A stretch of DNA of 64,000 nucleotides from Sphingosinicella sp. CPCC 101087 (lineage in GTDB: Bacteria; Pseudomonadota; Alphaproteobacteria; Sphingomonadales; Sphingomonadaceae): contig NZ_SBFF01000012.1 of assembly GCF_004151485.1 (NCBI RefSeq), positions 62,001 to 126,000 of the forward strand, in the 5' to 3' direction. Both the position numbers and the translations under genes were made by a program. Below, in pieces: positions 14,683 through 63,939 of this stretch (its first letter is position 1; each line of letters starts with the position of its first letter). The notes beneath the pieces were generated by a model. The model was not told where the DNA came from. It did not search any database and saw only the letters and a program-made list of their open reading frames with translations.

Positions 14683-14697
14683 GGAGAGAGTCGGGCG

Positions 14698-18486: not shown

Positions 18487-18489
18487 GAA

Positions 18490-44917: not shown

Positions 44918-46891
44918 ATGGCCCAGGAAGACGACTTCGAACTCTGGCTCGGCCGCATCGGTGATCGCGGTCGCGGGAGCGGCAAGAGGTTCGCGAACCG
45001 TATCCGGCAGGCGGCGCAGCTCGCCGGCGGACCGACGGCGCGCGGCGGCGCTCGGAAGTTCGACGGAAGCCGCATCGGCCGCGGTGCTGGGGTCGGCCGT
45101 GTGCTGTCGAGCGGACCAAGGCACAGGGGCCGCGCGGCGCGGCGCGTGGTGGTGAAGGCCAGCATCGTGAAGCTGGGCCGGAAGGGGCTCGCGCGGGCCA
45201 CGGCGCACATGCGCTACCTGCAGCGGGACGGGACAACACGCGAAGGGGAGCGCGGCGCGCTCTATTCGGAGCGGGAGGATCGGTTGAACGGCAAGGAGTT
45301 CGTCGCTCGCGGCGCCGGAGACCGCCACCAGTTCCGTTTCATCGTCGCGCCGGAGGACGGCTCGGAATATGACGACCTGAAGCCGCTCGTCCGCCGCTTC
45401 ATGGCCCAGGCGGAGAAAGACCTCGGGACGAAGCTCGACTGGGTCGCTGTCGATCACTTCAACACGGGCCACCCGCACAGCCACGTGATCGTCCGCGGGA
45501 AGGACGATCGGGGCAAGGACCTGATCATCGCACGCGAGTACCTGACGCAGGGGCTGCGCGAGCGCGCCGCCGAGCTAGTCAACCTGGACCTGGGGCCGCG
45601 GACCGAGCGGGAGATCTTTCGCTCCGACCTACGGGAGGCCGAGCAGGAGCGGCTGACCGGCATCGACCGGCGGCTGATCAGGTCGATGGACGCCGAGGGG
45701 CTCGTGGATCCGCGGCACGGGAGCTGGGTCGAGCAGGACCTGCGGACGGCTCGGCTGCGGACGCTCGGCGCCATGGGCCTGGCGAGCGAGGAGCGGGGCG
45801 GCCGATGGAAGCTCGATCCGGAGCTGGAAACGACGCTGCGGGAGATGGGCCGGCGCGGCGATATCATTCGCACGATGAACCACGCGCTCCGCGTCGCGAT
45901 GCAGCCGCGGGCGCCACAGGATCAGGGGATCTACGATCCGGACGCACCCGATGCGCGGCCGGTTGTCGGCCGGCTTGTCGCGTCCGGACTCGCGGACGAG
46001 CATGCCGATCGGCGGTTCCTCATCATCGACGGTGTGGATGGCCAGACCCACTATGTGGATGTCGGGGCGAGCATGCTCGAAGCGCGGCCGGGAGCGATCG
46101 TCCAGGTCGAGCCGCGGCAGGCGGGCGTGCGGGAGGTGGATCGGACGATCGCGGCGATCGCCGAAGCCAGCAAGGGCTGGTACAGCGTCGAGCTTCATCA
46201 GTTCCGTGACCCCACGGCGACCGAGCCGTTCGCTACGGCGCATATCCGCCGGCTGGAAGCGCTTCGCCGCAGCGGGCTTCCTGTCGAGCGAGAGGTCGAT
46301 GGCTACTGGCAGATCCCGCCGGATCACCAGGAGCGGGTGGAGGCGCACGAGCAGCGGCTTCGCGCCCGCATGCCCGTCACAGTCACGCTCCTCAGCGGTG
46401 ACCGCCTTGATCTTCTGCCCGAGCGGGACGGAGCGACCTGGCTCGACCGGGAGATCGTTGCGGAGAAGCCGGTGGAGCTCGGGCGCGGATTCGGGGCTGA
46501 AGTTCGGAAGGCGATCGATCGGCGCCTGCAATGGCTGGCGGCGCAGCGGCTGATCGATCTCGATGGCGAGCATTACCGCTTCAGGTCCGACCTGGTGGAC
46601 CAGCTGGAGCGGCGGGAGCTCAGGGCTGCCGCGGCGAAGGTCGGGCGCGAGAGCGGGCGTGCCTTTCGTGAGCACGGTATCGGCGATCATGTGGAGGGGG
46701 TATGCCGCGGGCCGGTGCAGGTCGGGGATCGCAAGTTCGCGCTGGTCGAGCACTCGCTTGAGTTCAGCCTGGTACCATGGCGGCCGGTGCTGGAGCGGCA
46801 GATTGGGCGCGAGATCTCCGGGGTTGTGCGCGGCGGAGGGGTCAGCTGGACCATTGGACGGGAGCGGCAAGGCCCCAGCATCGGCATGTGA
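44918..46891 (+). CDS. Relaxase, VirD2/TraI-like (DUF3363 type)
   Basis: A 657-residue conjugative relaxase. The metal-binding motif HFNTGHPHSHVIVRG (His180, His185, His187, His189) is the HUH signature; YLQRDG near residue 99 offers the catalytic Tyr. Residues about 250-620 match the DUF3363 region found in these relaxases (YDPDAPDARPVVGRLVASGL, WLDREIVAEKPVELGRGFG). The N-terminal 75 residues are basic and disordered. It nicks oriT and leads the strand into the recipient. No coupling protein or type IV secretion gene is visible, so the element depends on another system, or those genes lie outside the window. Confidence 0.9.
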   Translation: MAQEDDFELWLGRIGDRGRGSGKRFANRIRQAAQLAGGPTARGGARKFDGSRIGRGAGVGRVLSSGPRHRGRAARRVVVKASIVKLGRKGLARATAHMRYLQRDGTTREGERGALYSEREDRLNGKEFVARGAGDRHQFRFIVAPEDGSEYDDLKPLVRRFMAQAEKDLGTKLDWVAVDHFNTGHPHSHVIVRGKDDRGKDLIIAREYLTQGLRERAAELVNLDLGPRTEREIFRSDLREAEQERLTGIDRRLIRSMDAEGLVDPRHGSWVEQDLRTARLRTLGAMGLASEERGGRWKLDPELETTLREMGRRGDIIRTMNHALRVAMQPRAPQDQGIYDPDAPDARPVVGRLVASGLADEHADRRFLIIDGVDGQTHYVDVGASMLEARPGAIVQVEPRQAGVREVDRTIAAIAEASKGWYSVELHQFRDPTATEPFATAHIRRLEALRRSGLPVEREVDGYWQIPPDHQERVEAHEQRLRARMPVTVTLLSGDRLDLLPERDGATWLDREIVAEKPVELGRGFGAEVRKAIDRRLQWLAAQRLIDLDGEHYRFRSDLVDQLERRELRAAAAKVGRESGRAFREHGIGDHVEGVCRGPVQVGDRKFALVEHSLEFSLVPWRPVLERQIGREISGVVRGGGVSWTIGRERQGPSIGM

Positions 46892-47435: not shown

Positions 47436-48473
47436 CTAAAGGATCGATATCTGCTGCAGCCAGTTTAGGATGCCCTTGGCCAAATGTCGCAGCATCTCAA
47501 CTAACTCCTCCTTGAACGTCACGCCGAGCGTGGCGGTCGTGCCCCAGAGCGCTTTCGCCATGTATTCGCGGGCCATGTCCTTGCCCTTGTCGAGGACTTT
47601 GGCACCTTCCTGCTTCGCCATCTGCAGGATCTTGCCCGCCCACGCGAGGAACGCACCGGCCCTCCCGATTTCCCGGGGGTCGGGCTTCCCCAAGCTTAGA
47701 TCGGCCTTTAGCTCCTGTGCAGCCACCTCGATCTCAGGAGCAAGCCCAGGGTGCTTGTCGATAGGCCCCGGAGGCTGGTTGTGTCCCATGCCAGCCGGCG
47801 GGTCCTGCTTGCCGGTGTTCAAGGCAGCGAGCACTTCGTCGACGCCCGCGATAAGGTCGGTGCGCAGATCGGCTTCCTCGGGCGCGTCAAGATTGAATTC
47901 CGTGCTGTCCCTGGCGAGGTGGGCGATCTCGGACGCAAGCGGATCTGCCGCCGGACTGTCATCCGGCGCGAGGATAGGATCTAACTTCCCGCTGTGTACC
48001 GTCGAGAGGTGTTGAGCGTAGCGTCCGAGCTTATCCGGCCGGAGCGCTACCGCCCATTCGCCCTTCGTCTTGTCTTGCAGTGCGCCGCCGTCTGCGCCGG
48101 CCGATTTGAGGGTAGCCGCAGTGATTTGGATCGAGGGGGACGCGCCGAGCTTCCCGAGGCGGTGCTGCACGTCGAAGCCGGCAAAGACGCCGAAGTCGTC
48201 GCTCCAGCCCAAGATGAGTGTGCGCCCACCGGGTTCAGGCTCGAATCCATCGATCCCGGTGACCTGAATCCGGAATTCCGAGGCGGATCGACTTTTGCCG
48301 CCGTGGGAAAGATTCCAGATGTAAAGCCTCACCGTGTGGCGGACTCCCTCGCTCTCCATCGTGAAGCGCGCCGGATGCGTTCCGCCTTTGGTCAAGGGGG
48401 TCACCGTCCAACCGTCAGCGGCGATCGAATCCATCGCCCGGCGGATCAGCGCTTCCTTGTTGAGGCGGGCCAT
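47436..48473 (-). CDS. Defence operon protein with RLYIWN-type restriction-associated domain
   Basis: A 345-residue protein, last gene of the defence operon. Residues 20-115 resemble a domain found with DNA methylases in restriction systems: HTVRLYIWNLSHGG, SEFRIQVTGIDGF, GGRTLILGWSDDFGVFAGFD and SPSIQI. The same pattern occurs in the HTH protein at 53170. Residues 120-235 are low-complexity, and the C-terminal 100 are helical (AGAFLAWAGKILQMAKQEGA). A GGGAGAAG site supports the start; it lies 11 bases after the 122-aa gene. No nuclease motif is obvious. A role in recognising modified DNA is a guess from the domain's company. Confidence 0.65.
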   Translation of the reverse strand: MARLNKEALIRRAMDSIAADGWTVTPLTKGGTHPARFTMESEGVRHTVRLYIWNLSHGGKSRSASEFRIQVTGIDGFEPEPGGRTLILGWSDDFGVFAGFDVQHRLGKLGASPSIQITAATLKSAGADGGALQDKTKGEWAVALRPDKLGRYAQHLSTVHSGKLDPILAPDDSPAADPLASEIAHLARDSTEFNLDAPEEADLRTDLIAGVDEVLAALNTGKQDPPAGMGHNQPPGPIDKHPGLAPEIEVAAQELKADLSLGKPDPREIGRAGAFLAWAGKILQMAKQEGAKVLDKGKDMAREYMAKALWGTTATLGVTFKEELVEMLRHLAKGILNWLQQISIL

Positions 48474-48484
48474 CGCTCTTCTCC

Positions 48485-48853
48485 CTATTCACCCTTGGTG
48501 GCGAATAGCACCCCGGCGACATCGGGTGGGAGAGCATCGCCTTTATCGAACAGGCGCAGTCCCTCATTCATGAGGTGCTCGACCAATCTATAAGGCTGAG
48601 TCTCGTCGGGAAACAGCGCCTCTACGACGGCTTTCAGGGCCGCATCGGAATCGACGCTGCCGACGTTCCACTTGGTGCCGGCGCCCTCCGTCGTGCCGCG
48701 CGCTACGCCGGAATCGATCGCGTGCGCCATGGCGAACTTGGCCGCCTCGATTTCGGAAGCGAAGAGGCCTTCCGACGCCAGAGCGGCGAGGACGCGCTCG
48801 TTCGCCGAGGTGACCCCGATGGTCTTCTTGTCCATCGTTCTCTCTGCGGCCAT
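48485..48853 (-). CDS. Small conserved protein of the defence operon
   Basis: A 122-residue protein I do not recognise. It is mostly helical, with NERVLAALASEGLFASEIEA, AAKFAMAHAIDSGV and YRLVEHLMNEGLRLF. The size and helical pattern recall DndE-like or RHH-type partners of SMC-like ATPases, but no specific motif confirms that. An AGGAGAAGG site lies directly before the ATG, and it starts nine bases after the stop of the ATPase gene, so it is translated with it. Confidence 0.7.
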   Translation of the reverse strand: MAAERTMDKKTIGVTSANERVLAALASEGLFASEIEAAKFAMAHAIDSGVARGTTEGAGTKWNVGSVDSDAALKAVVEALFPDETQPYRLVEHLMNEGLRLFDKGDALPPDVAGVLFATKGE

Positions 48854-48862
48854 GACCTTCTC

Positions 48863-50818
48863 CTATCGCTTTACAAGTTCGGTGTGACGGGCAGACTGCC
48901 GTTCCAGCGACCATTCAGAACGGAGCCGGCCCTTGAGGGCGGCGCGGGCGCGGGCGGGCGGCAGCTCCTCTTCGTAGACCAGCAGAACGACCTGATCGGC
49001 CATGTCGGGGAGGACCTCAACGATGCGCGATCGGTGCCCCCCGTCGAGGCGGCCGAAAGGAGAGTCGATGACGATAGGCCCGCGGAGCTGGGCATTGTTC
49101 TGCAGCGCAGCAACCAGCGATAGGGCGACGACATGCTCGGCGCCGGCCGAGCGGACGGGAATGTCGCTCCCATCGCGGTGGACAATCGTCAGGCCATAAC
49201 TGTCGTTGATGCGCAGACCCGCATAATCGGACTCGGTGGTCAGCTTTTGGAAGTATTTGCTGGCGTCGGCCTCCACGCGATGGCGCAGCTGGTCGCGGTA
49301 GACATCAACGCTTTCCTTAAACAGATCATAGAGCCGGCTCGCCAGGTCCCGGCGGCGGCGCTCGGACTCCATCTGGCCGCCGGCCAGCTTGTCCAGCCGC
49401 TTCTGGATGTTGTCCCGGTAGGTGGCGTTGTCGGCCAGCTTTCCGGCCGTTGCCTTGACCCCTTCCTCCAACGCCGCGATCTGCCGGACGACGGAGTCAT
49501 ATTCGCGGCGGAGGCCCTTGAGCTCGTCCTCTTCATCTCCAGTCAGCTGCTTGCCGATTTCCTCGATCTCTGCGGTCTTGGCGTAGATCTCGCGCTTGCG
49601 GGCCTCGAGATCGGCCCAGAGCAGTCGAAGCGCCTCGGGGTTCGCCTCCGCCAGCTGCGTTTCAAGCGCGTCGAGACGGCGGCGGACGCCGGCCAGCTCC
49701 CGCTGATCGGCTTCGCGCGACCCTTGCCCGCCCTGTGGCAAGAGACCCCGGATCTTCGCCTGGGCGTCCGGCGAGACGGTCTGGAGACAGGTCGGGCATG
49801 CTACATCATGGCCCTCGGCAAGGCTGTGCAGAACCTGAGCCCGGGTGACGGCGCTCTGCAGTTCCGCTTCCTTCGTGCGATGCACGGTCACGGCCGCCGC
49901 CAACTGCGGACGAATGAGCGCCGACCAGGCCGGTGCCATGGCCTTCGAGATGGCGTCCTTCTTCTTCTGGAGAGATTCGTCGAGGCTCGCGACCTCACCC
50001 GCCAGTCGGTCGCGCTTGTCGAGCAGCGAAGCCATGCGCTCGCGGCGGCGCATGTCGTCCTCGATCGCGACCTTCTTCGCCCTGAGGGTCTCGAGATTCT
50101 TCTCGTGCCGGAAGAGGTCCGACGTGAGAACCTCGCGTTCCTCGACAAGGCTCTGCAGCTGGTTGCCGAACTCTCTTGTCTTCTGGTCGCCCTGGGCGGC
50201 GAGGGCGACGCGCGCCTCAGCCCTGTCGAGCGCCGCCTTTAGGCTGTCGCGCGACCGCGTGAGCGTCGGCAGGCCCAGTATCCGTTCGATCGCCTGGCTG
50301 ATCTTCGGGCCCATGTCGGTGTCGCCGTGCAGCAGGTCCTCATATTCCTGCAGCAGCTCGCCGTCGAAGAGGAAGAACCGTGCGATCTGCTCGGGCAGGA
50401 TGCGTTCGAGCTCAAGGGCGGCCTGCTGCGCCGGGAGGATGTGCCCGCCACGCTCGAGATAGTAGTCCGCGACATAGTCGTCGTGGCCGGCGGGCACGTC
50501 GGTTCCGGACTTTGGTCGACAGGTCCGCGTCAGCCGATATTCGGCACCCGCGTGGGTGATCTGGAGCCTCACCTCGAAGCTTCGGGCGCCCTCCGCGCGA
50601 GCCTCCCAGTTGATCATGTCATGGAACGATACGGGCCGCCGGCCTCGCCCGATGATCTTCCCGAAGAGCGCGAAGCGAAACGCGTTCAACAGCGTCGTCT
50701 TCCCGCGCATATTCTCGCCGTAAAAGACGGTGACGCCCTCTTCGTCCGGAAGGTTGAAGGCCTGCTGGCCCTTGAAGGCGCCGAAATCCTTGAGGTGGAG
50801 CGATTTGATCCGCAGCAT
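48863..50818 (-). CDS. Rad50/SMC-like ATPase (DndD type)
   Basis: A 651-residue ABC-type ATPase with split nucleotide-binding halves and a central coiled coil. Walker A is GENMRGKTT (Gly34-Thr42), a Q-loop/FFLFDGELLQEYEDL segment comes near residue 155, the coiled coil spans about 180-540 with a CPTC zinc-hook-like turn near 338-341, and GPIVIDSPFGRLD is the Walker B region. This is the architecture of DndD and other defence SMC-like proteins. It probably binds and scans or clamps DNA for the partner helicase. Its ATG shares a base with the stop of the 65-aa gene. Confidence 0.9.
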   Translation of the reverse strand: MLRIKSLHLKDFGAFKGQQAFNLPDEEGVTVFYGENMRGKTTLLNAFRFALFGKIIGRGRRPVSFHDMINWEARAEGARSFEVRLQITHAGAEYRLTRTCRPKSGTDVPAGHDDYVADYYLERGGHILPAQQAALELERILPEQIARFFLFDGELLQEYEDLLHGDTDMGPKISQAIERILGLPTLTRSRDSLKAALDRAEARVALAAQGDQKTREFGNQLQSLVEEREVLTSDLFRHEKNLETLRAKKVAIEDDMRRRERMASLLDKRDRLAGEVASLDESLQKKKDAISKAMAPAWSALIRPQLAAAVTVHRTKEAELQSAVTRAQVLHSLAEGHDVACPTCLQTVSPDAQAKIRGLLPQGGQGSREADQRELAGVRRRLDALETQLAEANPEALRLLWADLEARKREIYAKTAEIEEIGKQLTGDEEDELKGLRREYDSVVRQIAALEEGVKATAGKLADNATYRDNIQKRLDKLAGGQMESERRRRDLASRLYDLFKESVDVYRDQLRHRVEADASKYFQKLTTESDYAGLRINDSYGLTIVHRDGSDIPVRSAGAEHVVALSLVAALQNNAQLRGPIVIDSPFGRLDGGHRSRIVEVLPDMADQVVLLVYEEELPPARARAALKGRLRSEWSLERQSARHTELVKR

Positions 50819-51015
50819 CAGTTGGACTCCGCCGCGCGGGCGGCGATGGCCTCGTCCACCGATCTTGCGACATTGTCGGCCACGACGCCGTCCGCGTGGA
50901 GGCGAAGGACCTCGAGAACCAGATCGCGGTCGATGTCCGGGTACCGTTCGGAACGCACCCTCTCGATCGTGTCCGCGACAGAGGCGTCCCGGTGGGCGTG
51001 GGCGTCGTTAGGCAT
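50818..51015 (-). CDS. Small protein of DNA-modification system
   Basis: A 65-residue protein (VADTIERVRSERYPDIDRDL, VLEVLRLHADGVVADNVARS) that is acidic and helical. It overlaps the helicase stop by eight bases and the ATPase start by one, so it is certain to be co-translated. Short proteins of this kind between a helicase and a DndD-like ATPase have been annotated as modification-system-associated small proteins; the assignment is by context. It probably bridges the two large proteins. Confidence 0.75.
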   Translation of the reverse strand: MPNDAHAHRDASVADTIERVRSERYPDIDRDLVLEVLRLHADGVVADNVARSVDEAIAARAAESN

Positions 51016-53167
51016 CTGCCGTCTCCAATTCGTCTGTTTCGCTATCGTCGGATTCAAAGCCGTTCCCCGTGACGCTCGCCCAGTCGAAGCCGGTGGCGGC
51101 CGCAATGCGCCGAAGGTCCGCCACCGCGCCGGGATTGACGGCGTGGCTCCCGAACTCGATGGCGCGTGCCAGTTCGCCCTTAAGTATCGAGCCGCCCATC
51201 GCATCTTCGTCGTTCGCCTCAGGGACCACCACCACGTCGTGGAGGTGCGCCAGCGCCTTGCCCGGGAACCTGCGGAGCACGCGGCCGCGCCGCTGGATGA
51301 ACTCGCGCGGGTTCTTCGACGAAGCCAGGATGAGGGCATGGGTGACCGCCGGAATGTCGACTCCTTCGTCCAGGCAGCGGATCGAAACCACCACTCCGCC
51401 GCGCTCGCCGAACACCTCCAAGGTCCGGCTGCGGTCACCGGGCATGGCGCTATGATATTCGTAGACGTCGTCCACCCCCGCCTCCGAGATGGATCGCTTT
51501 ACGTCGGCGAGCTGGTTCTGGTCGTCGCAATAGACGATCCAGCGCTGGCCGCGGCGGTATGCTCCCGCCAGGACCTGGCCTGCAAGGGCAACCTTCGCCC
51601 GGGCGCCTTTGACGATCCTCGCGCGGCGGATCAGCAGCAGCTTGAGGCGGGCCGAGAGGCCGTCGGTGGCGTCTCCGCCACCTGCCATCGACCGCGCGTA
51701 CAGGCGGCGAAAGTCGTCCGTAGCCTTGATCCACTCGGCTCGCTCGTCGTCCTCCAGGGCGACGGTGTGGACGTTGTAAGCATAAGGTGTCAGCGCCTTG
51801 GCCTTGATCGCATCCTGAAGCTCGAATGGCGGCGGCACGATCCCGCCGAAATAGCCCATGAGCATCGCGGTGCCGTCGGGATCTCCGGCCCGCTCGGGCG
51901 TCGCGCTGAGGCCGAGCCGCGCCCCCGTTTCGAGCGTGAGCAGCTGGCTTGCACTGGTCGCGCCTAGGCGGTGGACCTCGTCGGCTACCATGAACAGATG
52001 ATCCCCGCCGACGATAAGGCCGCGAAACTGGTCACTCGACGCGGTCTGGATCGTGGCGAGGATCGCGCGGGAGGCTCCGTCTCCAGGACGGCTCCAAGTA
52101 CGAAGCCGGGCCCCATCGCGCCACCGACCATGCCCGCCGCCACAGAGCATCAGCTGCAAACCGGTCCCGTCGAACGTCGTGCGGAGCTCCTCGTTCCACT
52201 GCTTCATGAGGAGGTCGCTTGGGACCAGGATCATGGGTATTTCGCGCCGGGCGAGCCCGTCGTTGATCGCGCAGAGCGCAGTGAAGGTTTTTCCGGAGCC
52301 GGTCGCGTGCTTCAGAATTCCGCGGCGCCCACGCGCCTCCCAGCCGTCGAGCGCCGCGACCTGATGCGGGCGTGGAGTCCGGCCGCCTGACCGCCCGGCC
52401 TCTGCCGACCAACGAGCCGCGTGCTCCAGCTCGAGACAGATCTCATCGACGAAGTCCGGCCAGCGCCCTGCGTCCGAGGCCGACACGATCGCGCTCCTGG
52501 CGGTGTCGGGAAGGGCGCGGACAGTGATTTCAGGCCACCGGTCGTCCCAAACCCGCTCGAAATACTCCGCCTCGTCGATGACGCGAAGTTCTTCCCCCTC
52601 GTCACGCCAACTGGCGAAGACATCCACCGATTCAAGGTTGCCGTCGCGCGCAAGGCCCGGCCAAGTCTCGTTCATGGACCCCTTGAACGCGACGCGATCG
52701 CCGAACCGGTCCTCGAGAATGCCGACCTTGTCGTGGAACAAGCGCTTTGGCCTGCCGCCGGCTTCCTTGCCGACCCAGGCGATCTTGCAGTCGATCACGC
52801 CTGCGGCGATCAGCGAGGCCAGAACGACGGCAGGCTTTGCCAGCCCCTCAGTGGCCATCAGCGCGTTGAAGGACTCGGCGATCGCACGGCCGGCTTCGAT
52901 CTCCGCTCGCTCCGAATAACCGTCGCGGAGCGCCTCATGGTCGCCGTCGGAGAGAATGGGAGAGCAGATCAGGCGCATCCGGCCGCCTGCGGCGACGAAT
53001 TCCTTGAGACTCGGCCACGCCAGCAGGAAGATCGTGCTCGAGAAAAAGCCGACGGCGCGGTCGTACTTAACGCAGGCGCGGACCGCGGGCAGGTAGAATT
53101 CCTCCGCCACGTCGTCTTCGGGCTTGTGGTAGGCCCGCTTGAATACGTGATCACGTAGCTTCGCCAT
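51008..53167 (-). CDS. DEAD/DEAH-box helicase with N-terminal phospholipase D-like domain
   Basis: A 719-residue fusion. Residues about 20-235 form a PLD-like domain with one HDK motif (LFHDKVGIL, residues 143-147 approx.) and a later KGSMNETWPG, as in PLDc_2-type nucleases. Residues about 265-660 form a superfamily 2 helicase: HATGSGKT (Walker A, near 292), ADEVHRLG (DEVH box), GLSATPER (motif III) and QRRGRVLRRF (motif VI). The combination is known from several restriction and DISARM-like systems, where DNA translocation is coupled to cleavage. ATG 53167 lies two bases after the preceding gene; a longer frame upstream is only overlap. Confidence 0.92.
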   Translation of the reverse strand: MAKLRDHVFKRAYHKPEDDVAEEFYLPAVRACVKYDRAVGFFSSTIFLLAWPSLKEFVAAGGRMRLICSPILSDGDHEALRDGYSERAEIEAGRAIAESFNALMATEGLAKPAVVLASLIAAGVIDCKIAWVGKEAGGRPKRLFHDKVGILEDRFGDRVAFKGSMNETWPGLARDGNLESVDVFASWRDEGEELRVIDEAEYFERVWDDRWPEITVRALPDTARSAIVSASDAGRWPDFVDEICLELEHAARWSAEAGRSGGRTPRPHQVAALDGWEARGRRGILKHATGSGKTFTALCAINDGLARREIPMILVPSDLLMKQWNEELRTTFDGTGLQLMLCGGGHGRWRDGARLRTWSRPGDGASRAILATIQTASSDQFRGLIVGGDHLFMVADEVHRLGATSASQLLTLETGARLGLSATPERAGDPDGTAMLMGYFGGIVPPPFELQDAIKAKALTPYAYNVHTVALEDDERAEWIKATDDFRRLYARSMAGGGDATDGLSARLKLLLIRRARIVKGARAKVALAGQVLAGAYRRGQRWIVYCDDQNQLADVKRSISEAGVDDVYEYHSAMPGDRSRTLEVFGERGGVVVSIRCLDEGVDIPAVTHALILASSKNPREFIQRRGRVLRRFPGKALAHLHDVVVVPEANDEDAMGGSILKGELARAIEFGSHAVNPGAVADLRRIAAATGFDWASVTGNGFESDDSETDELETADA

Positions 53168-53169
53168 GA

Positions 53170-54057
53170 TCAGCCGCGAGCCATTCTGTCGCGCGTGATG
53201 CCGACGCGGCGGACGAGGCCGTCGGCCAACCGTGTGGGGGGGCAAGCCAGCAGCGTCTCGGTGACCGCGCCGCTGCCGGACGGCCTCAGCCGGCGCTCCT
53301 GCTCGGCGATCTTGCCGGCGGTCGCCGCGATGATGGTGCTGGCCTTCACCTGCACGTTTCGAGACCAAGCAAAGTCGGTATAGAGGCCCGCGTCCCACAG
53401 GATGAAGATGTCTTCCTCGGCGGCATAGCCCGCGAGAAGCACAATGCGGCCCCCCGTCTGATCGAAACTGGCACGTTCCCCCCGTCTTTGACCGGGGACG
53501 ATCAGCTGAACCTTGTGCTCGCCGAGCGGTCGGCCTCCGGGTGGGCGCGTGGCGTTGTAGATGTAGAGCCGAATGCGGGAGGGCAGGGGCGAGAGGAGGT
53601 CCGCCTCGAGCGGCTTGCGGTCGAGGTCGGTGTGGGACCGCACGCCGCTGCCGAGCGCCTTGATGAAGCGGCGGTGGAGCTCGGCCTGCGAGACGCGTTC
53701 GGTGAGGGCATCGATACCTGACTCGGGCTCGGCGTGGTCATCAGGCTCGAGCGGCGGCGGCACGGCTCCGACGTACACCGGCGGTCCCGACTGCACACTC
53801 GTCGCCATGATTTCCGCCGTCACCGCCACCACGTTGCCGCCGGCGGAGACGCGGGAAAGCCAGTGCTCGAAATGCTCGCGCCGCAGCCGCCATTGGCCAC
53901 GAAGCTTGAAGCCGGGGAGCTCGCCCGCGGCGAGCATGGCCGTGACGGTCCGCTCACCGAGCTTGAGCCGTGTCGCTATCTCTCGAATGGTCAGGATGTC
54001 GTTCAGAGCGGCCTCACGCTTGATGCCGCATATTGCGCAGCTTAGAAAGCTGCGCAT
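53170..54057 (-). CDS. HTH protein with RLYIYN-type restriction-associated domain
   Basis: A 295-residue protein. Residues 20-68 form an excisionase/MerR-like HTH (LTIREIATRLKLGERTVTAM, GELPGFKLRGQWRLRREHFE). Residues 155-250 carry the same domain as the protein at 47436: RIRLYIYNATRPPGG, EHKVQLIVPG, GGRIVLLAGYAAEEDIFILWD and NVQVKASTI. It probably binds DNA and reads its modification state or serves as a nuclease subunit. A 9-bp hairpin (54034-54056) covers its own start codon and first codons. It follows the methyltransferase gene by 20 bases. Confidence 0.7.
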   Translation of the reverse strand: MRSFLSCAICGIKREAALNDILTIREIATRLKLGERTVTAMLAAGELPGFKLRGQWRLRREHFEHWLSRVSAGGNVVAVTAEIMATSVQSGPPVYVGAVPPPLEPDDHAEPESGIDALTERVSQAELHRRFIKALGSGVRSHTDLDRKPLEADLLSPLPSRIRLYIYNATRPPGGRPLGEHKVQLIVPGQRRGERASFDQTGGRIVLLAGYAAEEDIFILWDAGLYTDFAWSRNVQVKASTIIAATAGKIAEQERRLRPSGSGAVTETLLACPPTRLADGLVRRVGITRDRMARG

Positions 54058-54077
54058 CAGCTAATCTTCAGCTGGAG

Positions 54078-57000
54078 TCAAGCGACCGGTTCGTTCAACA
54101 GATTTCGGACCTGCTGAAAATCCGGGAACTCTGACCGCCCTTCCGACATCAGGCGTCGCATCACTTCCGCGTGGACCCCCTGAACGCCCCGCGCCGCGAC
54201 CTCCGGGATAGCCGCCGCGTCACCGACCATGCGGGCAAGGTCGAGGGTGGCGTTCGCCACCGGTCGATCACGATTGATTTCGAGCGGCTTTCTGAGGTTC
54301 ATCACGACGTCGAAATGGGCGACATTCTCGTGCCCGTCGCGCCCTTTGTAGCCTTTGTGACTTTGCTGCTTTCGGTCGAGCGACGCAGCTTCGTGAAACT
54401 CGAATCCGGCGGCCGAGGCCGCTTCGCTGAGTGATCGCCAAACCGCGCTGTCGGTATTGTGAAAGACGATTGTGGCCCACCCACCAGGCTTGAGGACACG
54501 CGCCATCTCGGTGAGGGATTGCGCCATGAGCGCGGAATAGTCGGTGAGCGTCTTTCCCCCGTCTGCCGGCTGAAGCGAGCGGTTCACGACGGCCTCGAGG
54601 GCCGGATTCGTCACGCGGCCGAGCCAAGCTTCCCAGATCAGGTTGCAATCGGCGTAGAAGATGTTGGAGCCGAAGGGAGGATCGGTGAAAACGTAATCGA
54701 TGCTTGCATCCGCAATGCGGGAGAGATCGGTAGCGCTGCCGGAGAGAACCCGAGGAGGCTCGTCGGCGGAAGGGCTAAATGCAGCGTAATAGGCGCGCAA
54801 TTGTCCAATTTTCTTGCGCATCACCTCGAGCACGTTCGCCTCGGCGGAGAGCTGCGGCACGTAAAGCGTGCCGGTAAGCGGCCGATGGCCGCCGCGGGCG
54901 TTGAACCTTCGCATTCGCGTGCCATGCCAAGCGGTGTTCGTAAAGGCGAAGGCTAAAGCTGCCCGAAGCCGCGTGTCCGGCTCGTCCTGGATGGCATTCC
55001 AAAGCACCCCGAGCGCCAACCGGTTCCGATCCGTATACATGTCCCGAACGGATCGAATCCCTTGCAGATGAAGCGCGCAGCGCTGGTACATTTCGCGATC
55101 GGCGCCGAGTGGCACATCGGGAAAGGGCACGTCCGAACTCTCCAGAGCGAAGGCATCGGCGTCGAGTCGGTCGTCGGCGGTGGCGGCCCGTTCCCCTCGC
55201 GACCCGTTAGCGCGCGTGAACGCAATCAGCGCCGGCTCATTGCTCACCACCTCGAAGCGCCGGCGATCGGCGCGGTGGGAGCATGTCGGGCACTCCGTTT
55301 CACGCGTCATGCGCCCAGTCTTCCGGTCCACTGTGCCCCACAACAGAAAGTCGCCCCGGCACTGGGGGCACCGGTGACGCGTGCTCCAGAGGGTCCACCT
55401 TATCGTCGCCGGATCGCCATTTTCGTCCCGGGTCGAATAATAACGGTCGAAGTCACTCTTCACTGCCGTGGCCACACGTTGGAAAGCAGCTTCCAGCTGT
55501 TCACCGTTGCAGGCGTGGGTGTGATTCCACGCGAGATGTGCGGCGGCCGTGGAAAGATCGCTCAATATGGCGCGGCGCCCCGCCATCGCTGCCGCGACGC
55601 CTGTCATTCCAGAGCCGCAGAATGGGTCCAGGACAACGTCACCCGGCCTGGTGAAGTGCTCGATAAACGGGCGGATCGCCTCAGGCGGCACCTTGGTGTG
55701 GTAGCTGTGGGCGTTGTAAAGCGCGGTATTGCGAGAGCCCGGGACCATGCGCTCTTCGGGAGGTCCATCGGGAGCCGGGCCGCCCGTCGTCGCTGGAAGC
55801 GGCTCGTCCGAGAAATATCCGGCGACGAAGTCGGCCATCTTCTCCGCGGCTTCAGGCCGACCGAGCTTCGCCCGCCGAGCCTCGATGCTGTGGATGGTGA
55901 TCCCCGTGGCCGACAGATCCGACTGCAGCACGTCGCGCAGCACAGCGGTGTAGAGATGATCGGAGTCCGTCGCGCCTTCCGACAGAGCACGCTGGATCGA
56001 GGCGTCGACAAATGCTGGCGGAGCAGCTTCGCGCTTCCGCGCGGGCCGCGTCCGGTGCGCGAGCGTCAAGGTCAGATCTAGCCTCGTCACCCGCTCCTGT
56101 CCCAGTTGGCCCTTAACGCCTTTGATGGACGGCTGCCCCTTATTCAGCACATGGACGCTCTGGGTCTCTAAGCCTGCATCCGAGAGAGCGTCCTGTACTT
56201 CGGTCCAGACGCGGTCGTCGGTGTTGGAGAAGGCCAAGACGCCGCGTCCACCTCGCCGCATGATCCGGGCCGCCTCGCCAAAGGCCTTGGCCATGAGGTC
56301 ACCGTAGAGATCAAGGTCCTTGCCGCCAGCTGCCCGCGGCCGCCGCTGGTTGACGACGATCTCATTCGTCTGGTCCGTCTGGGCGCCGAGCCATGCATCC
56401 CACAGCAGGGAGCTGTCGGCATAGAAGATGTTGGAGCCAAACGGGGGGTCCATGAACACTAGGTCCACGGCATCATCTGGAATGCATCTTAGATCAGTCG
56501 CCGAGGCCTGAAAGACCTGGGCTTGCGTGTTGATGCCTTGCCGCGTCTGATAGAACCTCAGCACGTCGGCCGCCTTGCGGCGGAAGAGGCTAAGGACGTT
56601 CCACTCGTAACGAAGCGACGACACATACATCGTCCCAGTCATGACGTTCGTCGGACGTTTGGGGTTCCATTGGTAGCGCTTAGAGGCGCGGTTGACGCAT
56701 GCGGTGAACGCGAACAGTAGCGCCTCACGAACGCGACCCTCTGCCATTTGGACAATCGCGTGGCGCAGCGCCGCCAGTGCATGAAGATTACGTTTCGTGT
56801 AAAAACCGGCCGCGTCCGAGATGCCCATTGCCGAATGAGCGGAGCGCCACATCTCCCGATCCCTTCCGAAGGGAGCAGAGGGGATCCAATACGGTATGGT
56901 CGTCGCGTCCACCTCTTCTATTAGTGCCAGTTCCGCACCGGTCGGTTCATGCCACGTCATTCGCCTTCCTGCTCTCGAGACGTGGGTCCGCACGGGCTCC

Positions 57001-57869
57001 TCGCCAGTCCAAAGCAGATCCCCCTTCTCGAGTATTAGCGTGCACTCAGGGCACACGAGCTCCTTTCCCAACCCTTCATGCAAAGCATCCCAGTAGCTGA
57101 TGTGGCTGCTGCAGCTGTCACAAATGAATACATCACTCCAGACGGTGTACTCGATCCGCTCACCTTGGCTGCCGATCGGGACGTACAGCCAGTCCATGGT
57201 CGCTGCGACCTCCTGCTCCACGAGCGATAGTGCTCGCTTAAAAGCGTCCGGATCGCATGGCGCAGTGTAGTTTCGGGCGATGTGCACGGCCGCGGGTGAC
57301 AGATCAGATAGAAGCGCGTTCCGTCCCAGATCCAGTGCGGCGACCCCCGTCATCCCGGAGCCGCAGAATGGGTCGCTCACCAGCTCGCCGGGGCGGGTGA
57401 ATGCCTCGATAAACGGAGTGATCGCCGATGGCGGGACCTTGGTGTGGTAGCTATGAGCGCGATAGGTCGTGCTCGCCTTTGTCACATGGATCAAAGGCGG
57501 GATGGAAGAAGAGGCACGTGACGCCCGCTTCTGACGTGAACCGGATCGCGGTATTGTAGCAGGCTCAGTCGGATAGACGATCGCGTCTTGCTCCGCCCAC
57601 ACGCGTACGGCTGCAGCGACAGCTGTCGCATCAGCCTCGATGGCTCCTTGCACGTCTTTGGGGAGGCGTCCGGCTTGCAGAAGGAGGAGTTCTGGCGGCA
57701 ATCCCAGGATGGCGCTGAGCTTCCCAACCTGTTCCTCAGTTGGAACCCGCCTGCCGCTCTCGACGAGACTCAAGTAGCTCTTGTCCACGCCCACCTGGGA
57801 CGCCAAGGCCGCCTGAGAGATGCCCATAGCCTTTCGGCGCCTCTGAATGTGCAATCCCGCCGAACTCAT
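54078..57869 (-). CDS. XRE-HTH fused to two Zn-ribbon DNA methyltransferases
   Basis: A 1263-residue protein with three parts. Residues 5-60 are a Cro/CI HTH (RRRKAMGISQAALASQVGVD). Residues about 140-600 and 720-1190 are two complete methyltransferase domains with the order motif I (DPFCGSGMTG near 170 and 750), zinc ribbon (CDSCSS/CPEC near 250-275; CPQC/CPTC near 835-860) and motif IV (DPPFGSNIFYAD near 475 and 1060). That order plus the ribbon matches adenine-specific methylases of the COG1743/DUF1156-like type; DPPF suggests N6-adenine or N4-cytosine. It is the first gene of the defence operon. The HTH probably lets it repress its own promoter at the palindrome 57898-57916. Confidence 0.92.
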   Translation of the reverse strand: MSSAGLHIQRRRKAMGISQAALASQVGVDKSYLSLVESGRRVPTEEQVGKLSAILGLPPELLLLQAGRLPKDVQGAIEADATAVAAAVRVWAEQDAIVYPTEPATIPRSGSRQKRASRASSSIPPLIHVTKASTTYRAHSYHTKVPPSAITPFIEAFTRPGELVSDPFCGSGMTGVAALDLGRNALLSDLSPAAVHIARNYTAPCDPDAFKRALSLVEQEVAATMDWLYVPIGSQGERIEYTVWSDVFICDSCSSHISYWDALHEGLGKELVCPECTLILEKGDLLWTGEEPVRTHVSRAGRRMTWHEPTGAELALIEEVDATTIPYWIPSAPFGRDREMWRSAHSAMGISDAAGFYTKRNLHALAALRHAIVQMAEGRVREALLFAFTACVNRASKRYQWNPKRPTNVMTGTMYVSSLRYEWNVLSLFRRKAADVLRFYQTRQGINTQAQVFQASATDLRCIPDDAVDLVFMDPPFGSNIFYADSSLLWDAWLGAQTDQTNEIVVNQRRPRAAGGKDLDLYGDLMAKAFGEAARIMRRGGRGVLAFSNTDDRVWTEVQDALSDAGLETQSVHVLNKGQPSIKGVKGQLGQERVTRLDLTLTLAHRTRPARKREAAPPAFVDASIQRALSEGATDSDHLYTAVLRDVLQSDLSATGITIHSIEARRAKLGRPEAAEKMADFVAGYFSDEPLPATTGGPAPDGPPEERMVPGSRNTALYNAHSYHTKVPPEAIRPFIEHFTRPGDVVLDPFCGSGMTGVAAAMAGRRAILSDLSTAAAHLAWNHTHACNGEQLEAAFQRVATAVKSDFDRYYSTRDENGDPATIRWTLWSTRHRCPQCRGDFLLWGTVDRKTGRMTRETECPTCSHRADRRRFEVVSNEPALIAFTRANGSRGERAATADDRLDADAFALESSDVPFPDVPLGADREMYQRCALHLQGIRSVRDMYTDRNRLALGVLWNAIQDEPDTRLRAALAFAFTNTAWHGTRMRRFNARGGHRPLTGTLYVPQLSAEANVLEVMRKKIGQLRAYYAAFSPSADEPPRVLSGSATDLSRIADASIDYVFTDPPFGSNIFYADCNLIWEAWLGRVTNPALEAVVNRSLQPADGGKTLTDYSALMAQSLTEMARVLKPGGWATIVFHNTDSAVWRSLSEAASAAGFEFHEAASLDRKQQSHKGYKGRDGHENVAHFDVVMNLRKPLEINRDRPVANATLDLARMVGDAAAIPEVAARGVQGVHAEVMRRLMSEGRSEFPDFQQVRNLLNEPVA

Positions 57870-57897
57870 ACGCTCTCCATGTCGCTGAGACTAAGGC

Positions 57898-57916
57898 GTT
57901 GACAAATTCAGTCAAC
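57898..57916. promoter_or_regulatory. Palindromic operator/promoter of the defence operon
   Basis: GTTGAC-N7-GTCAAC is a perfect inverted repeat 29 bases before the methyltransferase start. On the minus strand its arm contains TTGACT, a good -35 element, so a protein bound here would block transcription. The XRE domain of the methyltransferase is the obvious candidate. No clear -10 is seen. A GGAGAG ribosome-binding site lies just before the ATG. Confidence 0.55.
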
Positions 57917-58234
57917 AGCAGATTTCAGCGTAGACCGACAAGCCTTACGATACGCCGAGGGTGATTCCGCCAGCCACCATCCCTGCTAAGCCTCTGTGTC
58001 TGCGGGACTATCGGGGGCACCCACCACAGCCCTGAGGCCTTCTTCCAAGGTGCTGTTGCCGGCGCGGAGGATTGATGTTAGGGCCTTCTAAGCGCCTATC
58101 TCTATGCCTCACTCGCACCGTTCATGCTCATGCTCTGGGGCAAGCTGAGGCCCGCTCCGGATGGACATGCCGGCGCCGCGACACCAGTTCACGCAGTGAA
58201 GCTTTCTAGAAACGCGACGGTCGCTCGACGGCCT
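57917..58234. other. Region without convincing gene
   Basis: About 320 bases between the defence operon promoter and the end of the small nuclease gene. The plus frame around 58095-58150 reads AYLYASLAPFMLMLWGKLRP, which could be the tail of a lost membrane protein, but there is no start or family match. Otherwise nothing is recognisable. Confidence 0.3.
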
Positions 58235-58768
58235 TTAGTAGCCGATGACGATCAAGCGATAAGGCATACGGATGCGGCTATGGCCGAACAGAGCGTCAGC
58301 TACCGCACACGTGTTCACGTAGTCCTTGCTGACGACATCACGACCTAAGCTCTTCCGCCGGTAGCCGAGCGGAACCGCCAGGATTAGGTTCTCGAGGTCC
58401 ACCATAACCAAGGCTTGAACGAGATCCCGATAAACCGCGTTACCCAGCCAAGCACGTCCCGCTTCAACCTCGAGCCCACATCGCCAACCGGGATGAAAGG
58501 AATCAATTTCATATTGCAGAGCGGATGCACCATCTTCACCGAAAAATACGGGCCGCTTGACGCGGGATCTCCCTGCCTCGACCTCAAAACCAAGCTCTAT
58601 TAGAGCTGGCGTAAGTGTTGCGAGAACGTCGTTGCTCTTAAGCCCTTTTCGAGCGGCTTGAGTGGAGATCGCCGGCTCCCACCGGCGGAACGCACTCACG
58701 ATATCATGAACGAACGCGGGAGGCGGTTCGGTTCGTGGAAAGGTGGAGAAGCGGATGCTGCCGGTCAT
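58235..58768 (-). CDS. PD-(D/E)XK-like (BglII-type) restriction nuclease
   Basis: A 177-residue protein. The block YEIDSFHPGWRCGLEVEAGR has an Asp followed 11 residues later by Glu-x-Glu, the arrangement of the catalytic acids in BglII/BstYI-type and related nucleases that use Glu instead of Lys. The rest (DLVQALVMVDLENLILAVPL, GYRRKSLGRDVVSKDYVNTC) fits an alternating alpha/beta core. It could be the nuclease arm of the neighbouring modification operon, with which it shares strand, but it lies 365 bases upstream of that operon and has its own transcript. The ribosome-binding site is weak. Confidence 0.6.
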   Translation of the reverse strand: MTGSIRFSTFPRTEPPPAFVHDIVSAFRRWEPAISTQAARKGLKSNDVLATLTPALIELGFEVEAGRSRVKRPVFFGEDGASALQYEIDSFHPGWRCGLEVEAGRAWLGNAVYRDLVQALVMVDLENLILAVPLGYRRKSLGRDVVSKDYVNTCAVADALFGHSRIRMPYRLIVIGY

Positions 58769-59156
58769 GCGACGAGAAGCATAGCCATAGCTCGGCCGCG
58801 GACCACCCCCTCATTTGCGGTTGAGCCGCTTCTCGTTTCGCAGCGTATGGGACCGCTCGTGGAGATCCCAGTATTGAAGCGCTTCGTCCAAAAATGTCCT
58901 AGAAAATATCCCGCTTGCGAAGCATGGCGGCAAGGTCCTCTGCTCTTCCGCTCTTATTGATCCGGTTTACAAGACCGACCGGCAATTCCTGCACGGGAGG
59001 CGCGCTACATCCTAGCCGACGATGACTTCATCCCCGGCGACCTCGCCTGGGCGGGCTTCGTCTTCGACAAGAAGACGACCCATGGCTTTCGCTATCGGAA
59101 GCTGCCCGGGCCCTAGTCCCTTTGAATCGTCGATCTCTTCGATGGTCCGCCTACGT
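58769..59156. other. Region with a C-terminal gene fragment
   Basis: About 390 bases between the nuclease gene and the HEPN operon. On the plus strand a frame ending at 59116 reads DDDFIPGDLAWAGFVFDKKT and THGFRYRKLPGP, which looks like the real C-terminus of some protein, but no start precedes it. It is probably a fragment left from an earlier insertion. Nothing else is recognised. Confidence 0.35.
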
Positions 59157-59714
59157 CTACGACGACTGTTCGGAGGCCATTAGATCGCGTCGCTCCAGAT
59201 AAGGCTTGATCGTGTCAGGAAGGGATTTGCCCGGACTGACCATCGTCAGGGCCGACAGTGCGTGCCCGATCACATGGTCTGGGTCGATGTCGCTATCGTC
59301 CATCGTTGCGAGCGGATCGTTGTCGGCGTGCTTCAGGAAATTGTACGGCTTCACGATGCAGTCGAGCAGCGCGCGCCGGCTCGCAGCGTCCAAGTTAATG
59401 ATCAGGTCGGCTGCTTGCGTCACCTCGCCCGCTGCGATTCCGCCGATAACCTTTTCGATGACGGCGTCCATTTCTGCATTGGTCGGGAGATTGACCGGCT
59501 CACCCTTCACCCGCGCCGAGGCGATCGTGAAGGCGCCGATCTTGAGCACCTGCTCGACATACTCGTCGCCGGCCTTCTTGATCAGGTCGCGCAACACGTT
59601 CAGCGCTGACGCCGCGACGACGTGGATCGCCAACGGATCCTCGCCACGTTCCGCCATGATGATCGCGCTGACCACCAGGCGCTCGGCTGCAGTTGCCTTG
59701 TCGATTTCAGCCAT
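59157..59714 (-). CDS. Hypothetical HEPN-like protein
   Basis: A 185-residue, largely helical protein. It begins AERLVVSAIIMAERGEDPLA and carries YNFLKHADNDPLATMDDSD near residue 128; the K/N-F-x-KHAD motif is seen in a widespread group of helical bacterial proteins that I take to be HEPN-like. The canonical R-x4-H is not present. The ATG at 59714 has a GGGGAG site; the longer frame overlaps the neighbour. It is the last gene of the five-gene operon, 22 bases after the 436-aa gene. Confidence 0.6.
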   Translation of the reverse strand: MAEIDKATAAERLVVSAIIMAERGEDPLAIHVVAASALNVLRDLIKKAGDEYVEQVLKIGAFTIASARVKGEPVNLPTNAEMDAVIEKVIGGIAAGEVTQAADLIINLDAASRRALLDCIVKPYNFLKHADNDPLATMDDSDIDPDHVIGHALSALTMVSPGKSLPDTIKPYLERRDLMASEQSS

Positions 59715-59736
59715 ATCTCCCCCCTTCGATACCCCC

Positions 59737-61047
59737 CTACAAAAGCGGTGCGCCCTGATCGAGCAGGTCCGACAGGACGTCGACGCGCGGCCGGGGGCCC
59801 TGCAACGCCAAGTCCACGATTCCGGCCGCGACGCTGCGGGCCAGGCTTCTCGCCAACACGCGCTGCGGAGTCGACATCTTCTGCAGCCCACCCCGGCCGT
59901 GGACGAACTGGCTGCGCAATTCGAACAGGTCCTTATATTCCTGCACGCTCGACTTATCGTTCAGGAGCGCGCCGATGCGAGCTGCAACCCGGTTTGTCGC
60001 GTTCATGCCCTTATGCGGGTCCGGCTTCGGTCGCATAAACGCCTTGTGATCCATCTCCAGGCCAACCGCCGCTTCAATCGCGGTCATGTGGGCCATGACC
60101 TCGTCGATGCCGTCCGACAGGAAGGCCCGCACCAGAAAGTGCGCGATCGGAGTCTCGAATAGGGGGGTCGCGCGGGCAGTCTCGAGGTCTCGCCAAGCCT
60201 GATTGGTCACCAACGCGAGCCCCCGCATGGCGTCGTCGCTCAGCGGAAGCTCAGTCGGCCGCTCAAGCTCGAGCTCTTCGCCGTCGTCGCCGACGATCCA
60301 CGGTTCGAGCGTAAGGCTGTCCGCGCTCGGCGGGGTCGCCGGCCGGATGAACAGGTCCTCGTCCACCGTGTGAATCCAGGGCAGCCGGAAGCCGCGCCAG
60401 TCGACCTCCTGCATCGTCGACCAGTCCTCCCATGGGGCGAGGATCAAGTAGAAGAGCGCAGCCTCAACTGCCGGCGGAAATCGCCCAAGGTGCGGGTCGA
60501 TCTCCCCGAAGTCGCGGTTCATCGCCATATACATCCACGGCGACGCGCGCTTCTCCGGCTGCGGGTCGAGGGCAATCTCCTCCTCGACTACCAGCCACTG
60601 AAATTGCGCAAGCCGCCGAGCGTCGAGCGGCTCGTTGGGCATAGTCCGCTCAATCCGTGGGACATCGAAAAGAGCGGCCAACTCGTCGGCGCTGAATTGC
60701 GCGATCCGCGACCGCCCGAACGTCATGACCGGCAGATCGTCGGCAAGATCGAGCGGGCATAGGTGACGGCGCACCGACGTCTTGTGGCGGCAAGCCTCAT
60801 CGAGAGCGTTCGCCGCAACGACAGGATCGAGCGCCAGATGAGTCTTCCCTGCCGGCAGATGGCACGGGAGCCCAAGCGATCGCAGAGCGGTGCTGAGCGC
60901 GAACACGGGCTTGTCGATGCCATACTCCGCCGCGCAGAGCTCGCTCAGAGCGGTGAAGCGCGGCGCTCTCAGGAGGTTCTTGGGCCCCGGCCGGGGGATG
61001 CGCCAGAGATCTTCAACCATTGCGATCATGGCGGCGTTCGCGCCCAT
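59737..61047 (-). CDS. Hypothetical protein with C-terminal HEPN (Apea-like) domain
   Basis: A 436-residue protein. The N-terminal 300 residues are unrecognised (VEDLWRIPRPGPKNLLRAPR, YMAMNRDFGEIDPHLGRFPP). The C-terminal 120 residues look like an Apea-type HEPN domain: AIEAAVGLEM, RVAARIGALL and FELRSQFVHGRGG, where RSQFVH is the R-x4-H ribonuclease motif (near residue 380). HEPN proteins of this type are RNases in abortive-infection and toxin systems. The start codon shares a base with the stop of the upstream gene (TGATG). Confidence 0.7.
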   Translation of the reverse strand: MGANAAMIAMVEDLWRIPRPGPKNLLRAPRFTALSELCAAEYGIDKPVFALSTALRSLGLPCHLPAGKTHLALDPVVAANALDEACRHKTSVRRHLCPLDLADDLPVMTFGRSRIAQFSADELAALFDVPRIERTMPNEPLDARRLAQFQWLVVEEEIALDPQPEKRASPWMYMAMNRDFGEIDPHLGRFPPAVEAALFYLILAPWEDWSTMQEVDWRGFRLPWIHTVDEDLFIRPATPPSADSLTLEPWIVGDDGEELELERPTELPLSDDAMRGLALVTNQAWRDLETARATPLFETPIAHFLVRAFLSDGIDEVMAHMTAIEAAVGLEMDHKAFMRPKPDPHKGMNATNRVAARIGALLNDKSSVQEYKDLFELRSQFVHGRGGLQKMSTPQRVLARSLARSVAAGIVDLALQGPRPRVDVLSDLLDQGAPLL

Positions 61048-61784
61048 CAGCCGGCCTCGCTGCGCGCCTGCGGAAACCAGGTGCGCTCCGCCCGCTGCTC
61101 GACCAGATGGGCTTCGAGGTTCTCGTGCTTCCCCTCGATGCTCTCATTGTAGATATATTCGGTATCCCGCCAGAACGCGGCGATCGCGGTGACGAACTCG
61201 CGCAGGGCGGCGACCGGGATCTCCATCGAGCCTGCAGGCGGCGGCGGCGCGGACCCTACCTGCGGCTCGCCAAAGCCGGGCGGCATGGGCGGGATCACAG
61301 GCCACAGGTCGGGTCGGCGCCGATGCAGTTCCACCGCCGAGTCCCCGTCACCGTGGCGGCACGCATTGCCGAGGTGCTGGAGGGTGTCGAGGAGCGGGAA
61401 GCTGGGAAACTCGTCCAAATTGATGCCGCGCAACCTTCGGAACCACTTTTGCAGATCTTGCCAGTTGGCCTTGTCGATCTTGCCGGCGATGGGCTTGCCC
61501 GGGCGTAGTTCGTTCGCGCAACCGCGCAGATAGCTGCGAAACTGCCGTTCCCAGATCGACTGGATCGACAGGCCGAAGGCCAAGATCGCCTCACTCTTCA
61601 TCGCTTCCATGTCGGCCTGAGCGAATTGATGGCCGGGCCAGTCGCTCGCCCCCAGTTCCGCGATCTTTGCGTCGAGCGTCGCGAGTGCCGGCACGATCAC
61701 GTCATCCAGAAAGGAGTGGATGGTCAGGTCGTGCTTGCTCGTCAGGACGTCGGCGAAGCAGTTCATCCAGCGGATCGTGGTCAT
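61047..61784 (-). CDS. Hypothetical helical protein, possible degenerate HEPN
   Basis: A 245-residue protein with helices at both ends (LAFGLSIQSIWERQFRSYLR; AALREFVTAIAAFWRDTEYI) and LQHLGNACRHGDGDS in the middle. The last resembles the RNAxxHG corner of HEPN proteins, but the Arg at the start is replaced by Leu, so an RNase activity is doubtful. A proline-rich linker (PPMPPGFGEP, PPPPAG) splits it. It overlaps both neighbours (4 and 1 bases), so it must work with them. No family assigned. Confidence 0.6.
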   Translation of the reverse strand: MTTIRWMNCFADVLTSKHDLTIHSFLDDVIVPALATLDAKIAELGASDWPGHQFAQADMEAMKSEAILAFGLSIQSIWERQFRSYLRGCANELRPGKPIAGKIDKANWQDLQKWFRRLRGINLDEFPSFPLLDTLQHLGNACRHGDGDSAVELHRRRPDLWPVIPPMPPGFGEPQVGSAPPPPAGSMEIPVAALREFVTAIAAFWRDTEYIYNESIEGKHENLEAHLVEQRAERTWFPQARSEAG

Positions 61785-63658: not shown

Positions 63659-63939
63659 CGCGGAACTCCATTCCGACAAAGTGGCCAAATCGTGCGTCGC
63701 TGGTCACCGGCGAGCATCGAGTATCACGAGCCTGGTAGTCGGAAAACAAGCGCATTTTGTGGCTCCGACCCGAAGGTGCCAATCAGCAAACGCCAAACTG
63801 CTTTCCACCTAGTTTTTTCGGGCGTCCGCTTTAGCTCCTGATAAGAACGAAAGCTGACAGACCGCTGACGGCCACGAGCGGCCGCGAAGGCCTGCGTCGT
63901 CCCACCAGGCGCCGCGAGATGTCACCCTAGCCGCTCGCT
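63659..63939. other. Upstream region of the HNH operon
   Basis: About 280 bases with no gene of its own; the plus-strand frames here are antisense continuations. It must contain the promoter for the five-gene operon, but I cannot place -35/-10 elements with confidence. It ends at the nested palindrome at 63940. Confidence 0.35.

Follow-up and report, generated by a model that had tools for sequence, protein, structure and literature searches.

The operon on the minus strand at 47436-57869 of the window (i.e. the whole stretch of 64,000 nucleotides that was analysed) is probably a methylation-paired PbeABCD defence operon. Seven ORFs fill this interval, spaced by -8 to +20 bp, in the order already given in the original prediction, which had described a tightly packed, modification-associated operon of defence type with a methylase, a PLD-type helicase and a DndD-like ATPase; the profile matches agree with this description, and modification-based defence, the function it proposed, is likely right. 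Its statement that the operon does not fit a named system has to be given up, since the core corresponds to PbeABCD and a version with methylase and MTaX1 genes is in print, as far as the available parts of two reports describe it (PMC10853773, PMC6459918); the kind is thus known and the operon is a member of it, in a version that looks complete. Additions to this known kind are the accessory nuclease, the exchangeable effectors and a hint as to the fold of MTaX1.

Whether PbeABCD works with methylases when phosphorothioate genes are lacking is a question left open by Xiong et al. in the accessible portion of their text (PMC6459918). With a modification gene, reader candidates and an effector assembled in about 10 kb of a bacterial operon, this methylase-pairing question becomes testable in a common laboratory bacterium. 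Furthermore, related sets of methylase and MTaX1 with different effectors offer a route to further systems and suggest a role for MTaX1, a poorly understood Pfam domain.

Genes of the operon and their setting

The gene at 54078-57869 (minus strand, as all those of the operon) encodes a protein of 1263 aa, in which an XRE-HTH domain is fused to a tandem of permuted Zn-ribbon DNA methyltransferase domains. It is matched by HTH_31 and N6_N4_Mtase in Pfam and, in PADLOC, by MTase_II PDLC03312 with 1704 bits, which outscores the PglXI match (660 bits), itself a real one. Identity between the two halves is 39% over 495 aa, and DPFCGSG, DPPF and two CxxC pairs are present in both of them at 7/7 loci (window included); both domains therefore look active, and each perhaps serves one strand of an asymmetric site. 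In a Rhodobacter locus (L008), the halves are two separate ORFs of 684 and 586 aa. DPPF motifs are commonly associated with methylation of adenine at N6. The methylases of the CxC ABC-ATPase/DndE systems are spoken of as cytosine methylases by Rakesh et al. in the available part of their report (PMC10853773).

The next gene, 20 bp away (53170-54057), encodes a 295-aa protein with Pfam matches to HTH_17 (1.6e-11) and MTaX1 (PF20296, 4.4e-21), and the last one (47436-48473) a 345-aa protein with a match to MTaX1 (1.7e-24) and a helical C-terminal part, the structure model of which has a pLDDT of 80.5.

The four genes between them are best read, as judged from homology and position, as a PbeABCD cassette. 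The helicase gene (51008-53167) lies 2 bp from that of the HTH-MTaX1 protein; its most likely start is the ATG at 53167, giving 719 aa, and not the GTG at 53398 of the ORF list. The protein, with an HKD-type motif and an SF2 helicase part, is matched by PADLOC PbeA with 663 bits and by TIGR04095 of NCBIfam with 308 bits, under the 600-bit cut-off of the latter; its HDK, GSGKT, DEVH and QRRGR motifs are conserved in the window and the other operon loci (7/7). The ATPase (48863-50818, 651 aa), of the DndD-like ABC type, scores 744 bits with PADLOC PbeC versus 190 bits for the best DndD among the matches listed, and 179 bits with TIGR03185 of NCBIfam, under the cut-off of 245.85. Its CPTC hook (CxxC) is invariant in 8/8 aligned sequences, the clade itself being named for CxC.

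Two small proteins complete the cassette. That of 65 aa (50818-51015) overlaps the helicase gene by 8 bp and the ATPase gene by 1 bp, an arrangement found at 7/7 operon loci including the window, and is placed in the PbeB slot by position and size only; it has no Pfam or PADLOC match and one weak NCBIfam match (E 0.032), and two plasmid proteins of the same slot bear the name '(CxC ATPase) DNA modification system(-)associated small protein'. The 122-aa protein (48485-48853), 9 bp from the ATPase gene and 11 bp from that of the 345-aa MTaX1 protein, is not matched in the Pfam, PADLOC or NCBIfam libraries, and is taken as PbeD-like from a profile-profile match: with hhalign, the profile of its family (11 members) aligns with that of six proteins from the same slot, of which three bear the name 'DNA phosphorothioation-associated protein 4', with a probability of 73% and E 3.9e-6, as compared with E 0.47-0.65 for three unrelated control profiles. 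The same profile does not match clade-1 DndE (probability 1.2%, E 0.018), nor do the six same-slot proteins (0.6%); PF08870, searched in the window's genome, does not match the 122-aa protein, and the PADLOC scan of the family gave a single match, to HEC-01B, in 1/11 members (E 0.03). PDB sequence searches with the alignments of this family, of MTaX1 and of the 177-aa nuclease discussed below gave E 0.12 or worse.

The GC content of the operon is 0.643 versus 0.645 for the window. On its left, the plus strand carries an SSB gene, a weak CopG-type match and a gene for a DUF3363 relaxase (44918-46891; PF11843, 413.8 bits), the relaxase being no part of the system, which points to a mobile-element setting; a TrwC relaxase gene is near one Sphingomonas copy (L004), and an integrase and an IS91-type transposase are near the Rhodobacter copy.

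Relation to known systems

PbeABCD was named by Xiong et al. in 2019, whose report, in its available part, describes an approximately 10^4-fold protection from viruses that needed phosphorothioate, leaves viral DNA uncleaved and is harmless and inactive when the modification is missing (PMC6459918). Set against these findings, the attack on unmarked DNA foreseen in the original prediction is no more than a possibility. In the same part of the report, base-modifying genes are found within 10 kb in 155/320 solitary PbeAC loci and methylation pairing of PbeABCD is proposed (PMC6459918); the literature search found no experiment on a methylation-paired PbeABCD. The DndCDEA-PbeABCD system shares with the operon the order of helicase (PLD/Res), small protein, AAA/ABC ATPase and small PbeD, but here the modification gene is a methyltransferase and two MTaX1 proteins are added, on comparison with the accessible text (PMC6459918), and the window ATPase is only distantly related to its haloarchaeal counterparts (24.0-24.3% identity to two same-slot ATPases). 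The CxC ABC-ATPase/DndE systems with methylase and MTaX1 of Rakesh et al. (2024) have the same core, methylase and MTaX1 as far as their verbal description in the available part goes (PMC10853773). The hook is CPTC here, and the XRE-tandem methylase, the HTH-MTaX1 gene and a linked BamHI-type nuclease are not named in that part of the text (PMC10853773).

The claim that BREX, DISARM and Dnd do not fit stands. The PADLOC scan covered 10 proteins of 47436-61784, and the matches listed for the methylase and the ATPase were the best 25 of 95 and the best 25 of 110, respectively. Among the matches listed there are no PglZ, BrxC or BrxF, and BREX was rejected for the lack of the first two; likewise, DISARM was rejected, as they include no DrmA or DrmB and only a weak match to the helicase DrmD (23.9 bits). 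MADS was rejected with NCBIfam scores of 51 of 80 bits for MAD1 and 19.5 of 720 bits for MAD2. DndC, the absence of which had been predicted, is not found over the cut-off in the window's genome or in any of the nine genomes (0/9; one weak match, 21.8 of 290.4 bits), on which ground the Dnd phosphorothioation system was rejected. The window's genome, moreover, has no DndD-family match apart from the operon ATPase, so that a phosphorothioate mark of Dnd type is unlikely here. Methylases about 31% identical to the tandem enzyme are found in two BREX type 3 plasmid loci (the two examined of four plasmid records at 30-33%) and appear, from this similarity, to be its distant relatives, the BREX PglX being distant kin of a methylase that is here tandem and XRE-fused. 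Type II restriction-modification loci with MTaX1-HNH (Roseivivax, Thiothrix and the G300 locus described below) share a methylase next to MTaX1; there MTaX1 is fused to HNH, whereas here it carries a helical C-terminal part and stands beside PbeABCD.

Recurrence, accessory nuclease and exchangeable effectors

A search for the same gene set elsewhere, which had been suggested as a check, recovered all seven genes in the same order and on the same strand at 5/9 genome-contig loci, namely in Sphingomonas (L004 and L005), Tateyamaria (L006 and L007) and Rhizobiales (L009); given this recurrence, the arrangement is more than chance. The Rhodobacter locus has six of the genes; nothing there matches the 345-aa MTaX1 gene, which means that either this gene is not always needed or the locus has decayed. 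In two further loci (L010 and L011, the latter beginning at a contig end) the matches are limited to PbeC and PbeD, and in L012 to distant ones to PbeC and PbeA. Pairwise distances among the methyltransferase, PbeA, PbeC and the 345-aa MTaX1 protein correlate with r 0.91-0.97, and those that involve the HTH-MTaX1 protein or PbeD with r 0.68-0.90 (6-7 loci in both cases, with no null test). The close clade is rare in the sampled genomes, as PbeC is matched at E<=1e-40 in 2/385 class genomes, the window's included, and, among 398 phylum genomes, PbeC at E<=1e-50 and MTaX1 at E<=1e-5 are matched in the window's own genome alone.

On plasmids, ten records match the ATPase at E<=1e-20, and the order helicase, small protein, ATPase, small protein is found at seven of the eight loci examined (Aurantiacibacter, Pontibrevibacter, Ruegeria, Natrinema, Halorhabdus, Lactiplantibacillus and Halorubrum), the Halorhabdus cassette being interrupted by an IS66 gene; on the Rhizobium plasmid the helicase gene instead follows that of PbeD. 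In Halorubrum, the cassette comes after dndC, dndD, dndE and a desulfurase gene, and its small protein is named 'CxC ATPase DNA modification system associated small protein'; in Halorubrum trapanicum the sole over-limit match falls on the DndD gene and does not extend to the gene in the PbeC slot of that plasmid. Beside three plasmid PbeABCD-type cassettes there are sigma-factor-like HTH proteins (L039, 636-3689; L042, 611-3691; L019, 14359-15672; all on the plus strand), those of L039 and L019 with alpha-CTD-like Pfam matches and that of L042 recognized by annotation.

The minus-strand gene at 58235-58768, outside the operon coordinates and 365 bp upstream of the methyltransferase gene, encodes an accessory protein of 177 aa that shares the fold of the BglII, BstYI and BamHI endonucleases. 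Its D89, E100 and E102, invariant in 5/5 sequences of the family, may correspond to the D...ExE-type active-site residues of BamHI. The gene is at the operon boundary in 5/9 genomes, with varying position and strand, and was not found in the other 4/9 operon-type genomes, one of which (G385, the genome of L004) has the full operon. For its association with the operon, the Fisher value is 4e-6 (4/8 versus 3/336, with the window's genome omitted), a figure that treats related genomes as independent; its distances track those of the operon less well (r 0.40-0.77). It also occurs without the operon in 3/337 class genomes, where none of the seven genes was found at E 0.01 in the three surrounding 19-kb stretches and where two of the three frames look broken, that of G138 close to its end and that of G091 by a single stop. 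The accessory nuclease is therefore not tied to the operon. It has no plasmid match, and pattern searches of viral contigs turned up nothing related to the nuclease, to the MTaX1 protein or to the methylase. In the accessible text of Rakesh et al., standalone nucleases tend to lie at system boundaries, sometimes on the opposite strand (PMC10853773).

MTaX1 recurs with other partners. Eight plasmid records, of which five were examined, match the 345-aa protein, each only in its N-terminal part, and its C-terminal 114 residues have no plasmid match. MTaX1 is fused to HNH in three proteins, in all of which cases a methylase gene is adjacent or at most 0.5 kb away (beside the fusion gene in Roseivivax, L053, and Thiothrix, L054), and to GmrSD in one, from Hymenobacter (L058), where no methylase is annotated within the 10.5-kb stretch. 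The third HNH fusion (L020, genome G300) is encoded beside an XRE-tandem methylase 47.6% identical to that of the window; the opposite strand encodes a PbeD and a partial PbeC. On a Pseudarthrobacter plasmid (L055), an annotated HTH regulator, two methylase genes, MTaX1, an AAA_5 ATPase and a 668-aa protein follow each other; one methylase is 43% identical to the first half of the window enzyme and the other 44% identical to its second half, and their order is the same. This set of split tandem methylase, MTaX1, ATPase and 668-aa protein is a candidate methylation-paired system. A Paenarthrobacter record has the same last three genes, its methylase matches lying at the opposite end of that circular record. 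The 668-aa protein of the actinobacterial plasmid, encoded with the ATPase at 6771-9955 (plus strand), belongs to no Pfam or PADLOC family. As related marking sets occur with at least three effectors, MTaX1 as the site- or mark-reading part is supported, and the fusions to HNH and GmrSD likewise support a possible reader role.

Mode of action, alternatives and neighbouring genes

In the mechanism proposed for a methylation-paired PbeABCD, the self mark would be base methylation instead of phosphorothioate. The tandem methyltransferase would mark the target sites of the host, PbeC and PbeD would scan and loop DNA, and one or both MTaX1 proteins would read the mark at the same sites; on unmarked invader DNA, the helicase/HKD module of PbeA would act and replication of the invader would be stopped. 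The XRE and HTH_17 domains probably serve to control expression, and the BamHI/BglII-like gene next door may provide an optional second nuclease. By analogy with the tested archaeal system, it is conceivable, if somewhat doubtful, that methylation also arms PbeABCD, in which case loss of the methylase should abolish defence without killing the cell. A broader reading, which is on the whole unlikely, would make of MTaX1 a nuclease-derived reader of the methylation state, forming with the tandem methylase family a portable self-marking cassette that is plugged into unrelated effectors (PbeABCD, HNH, AAA_5 ATPase and, by domain fusion, GmrSD), with methylation arming the PbeABCD version and not merely blocking it.

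The pairing of a related tandem methylase with an MTaX1-HNH nuclease gene in L020 and the conservation of HKD-type and helicase motifs at 7/7 operon loci would also suit ordinary restriction-modification, in which the methylase protects, PbeABCD cuts unmethylated DNA through its HKD nuclease and the methylase is essential; cleavage as part of the action is indeed argued for in the available part of Rakesh et al. (PMC10853773). This alternative is nevertheless rather less probable than the pairing proposed here, as, according to the accessible part of the report, the PbeABCD that was tested showed no toxicity when the modification was lacking, and the viral DNA was not cut (PMC6459918). Distinctly improbable is a suicide system, in which, once an invader disturbs methylation or PbeB, either PbeABCD or the accessory nuclease would turn on the DNA of the host and kill the cell: action of this type is proposed for PbeB-type small proteins and standalone boundary nucleases in the consulted part of Rakesh et al. 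(PMC10853773), and the boundary position of the accessory nuclease, variable in place and strand, in 5/9 genomes would suit it, but the full operon of G385 exists without that gene.

That the operon no longer functions, or that it works for the upkeep of an element and not against phages, is very unlikely. Remnant or disrupted copies are known (L010 and L020, in the latter of which the PbeC match covers residues 410-651 only and a transposase ORF runs into the beginning of the frame), and relaxase or integrase genes near three copies (DUF3363 in the window, TrwC in L004, integrase in L008) would go with maintenance of an element; however, the seven frames are open across their aligned length in the window and five further loci, with the start codon of the MTaX1 gene unclear in L006, and methylase and helicase motifs are kept. 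The preferred reading is that of a methylation-paired PbeABCD operon.

Other genes in the vicinity deserve mention. A 437-aa protein (62375-63688, minus strand) combines a UzuA-like N-terminal part (PADLOC 1.9e-17) with an HNH_2 C-terminal part, and would represent a second restriction-like gene near the operon. The 245-aa protein at 61047-61784 (minus strand) weakly matches a reverse-transcriptase-associated HEPN model (PADLOC 1.5e-4), and an adjoining 436-aa protein has no Pfam, PADLOC or NCBIfam match. Just beyond the right end of the window, still on its contig (L022), two adjacent giant frames of 1791 and 2594 aa (1195-6570 and 6572-14356, both on the minus strand) have no PADLOC match at E<=0.001 and only one sub-cut-off flagellin match in Pfam (E<=0.01). 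Directly beside one Tateyamaria copy of the operon (L007), a 1776-aa protein encoded at 13645-18975 (plus strand) shows weak Sacsin/HATPase and NO VEIN C-terminal matches.
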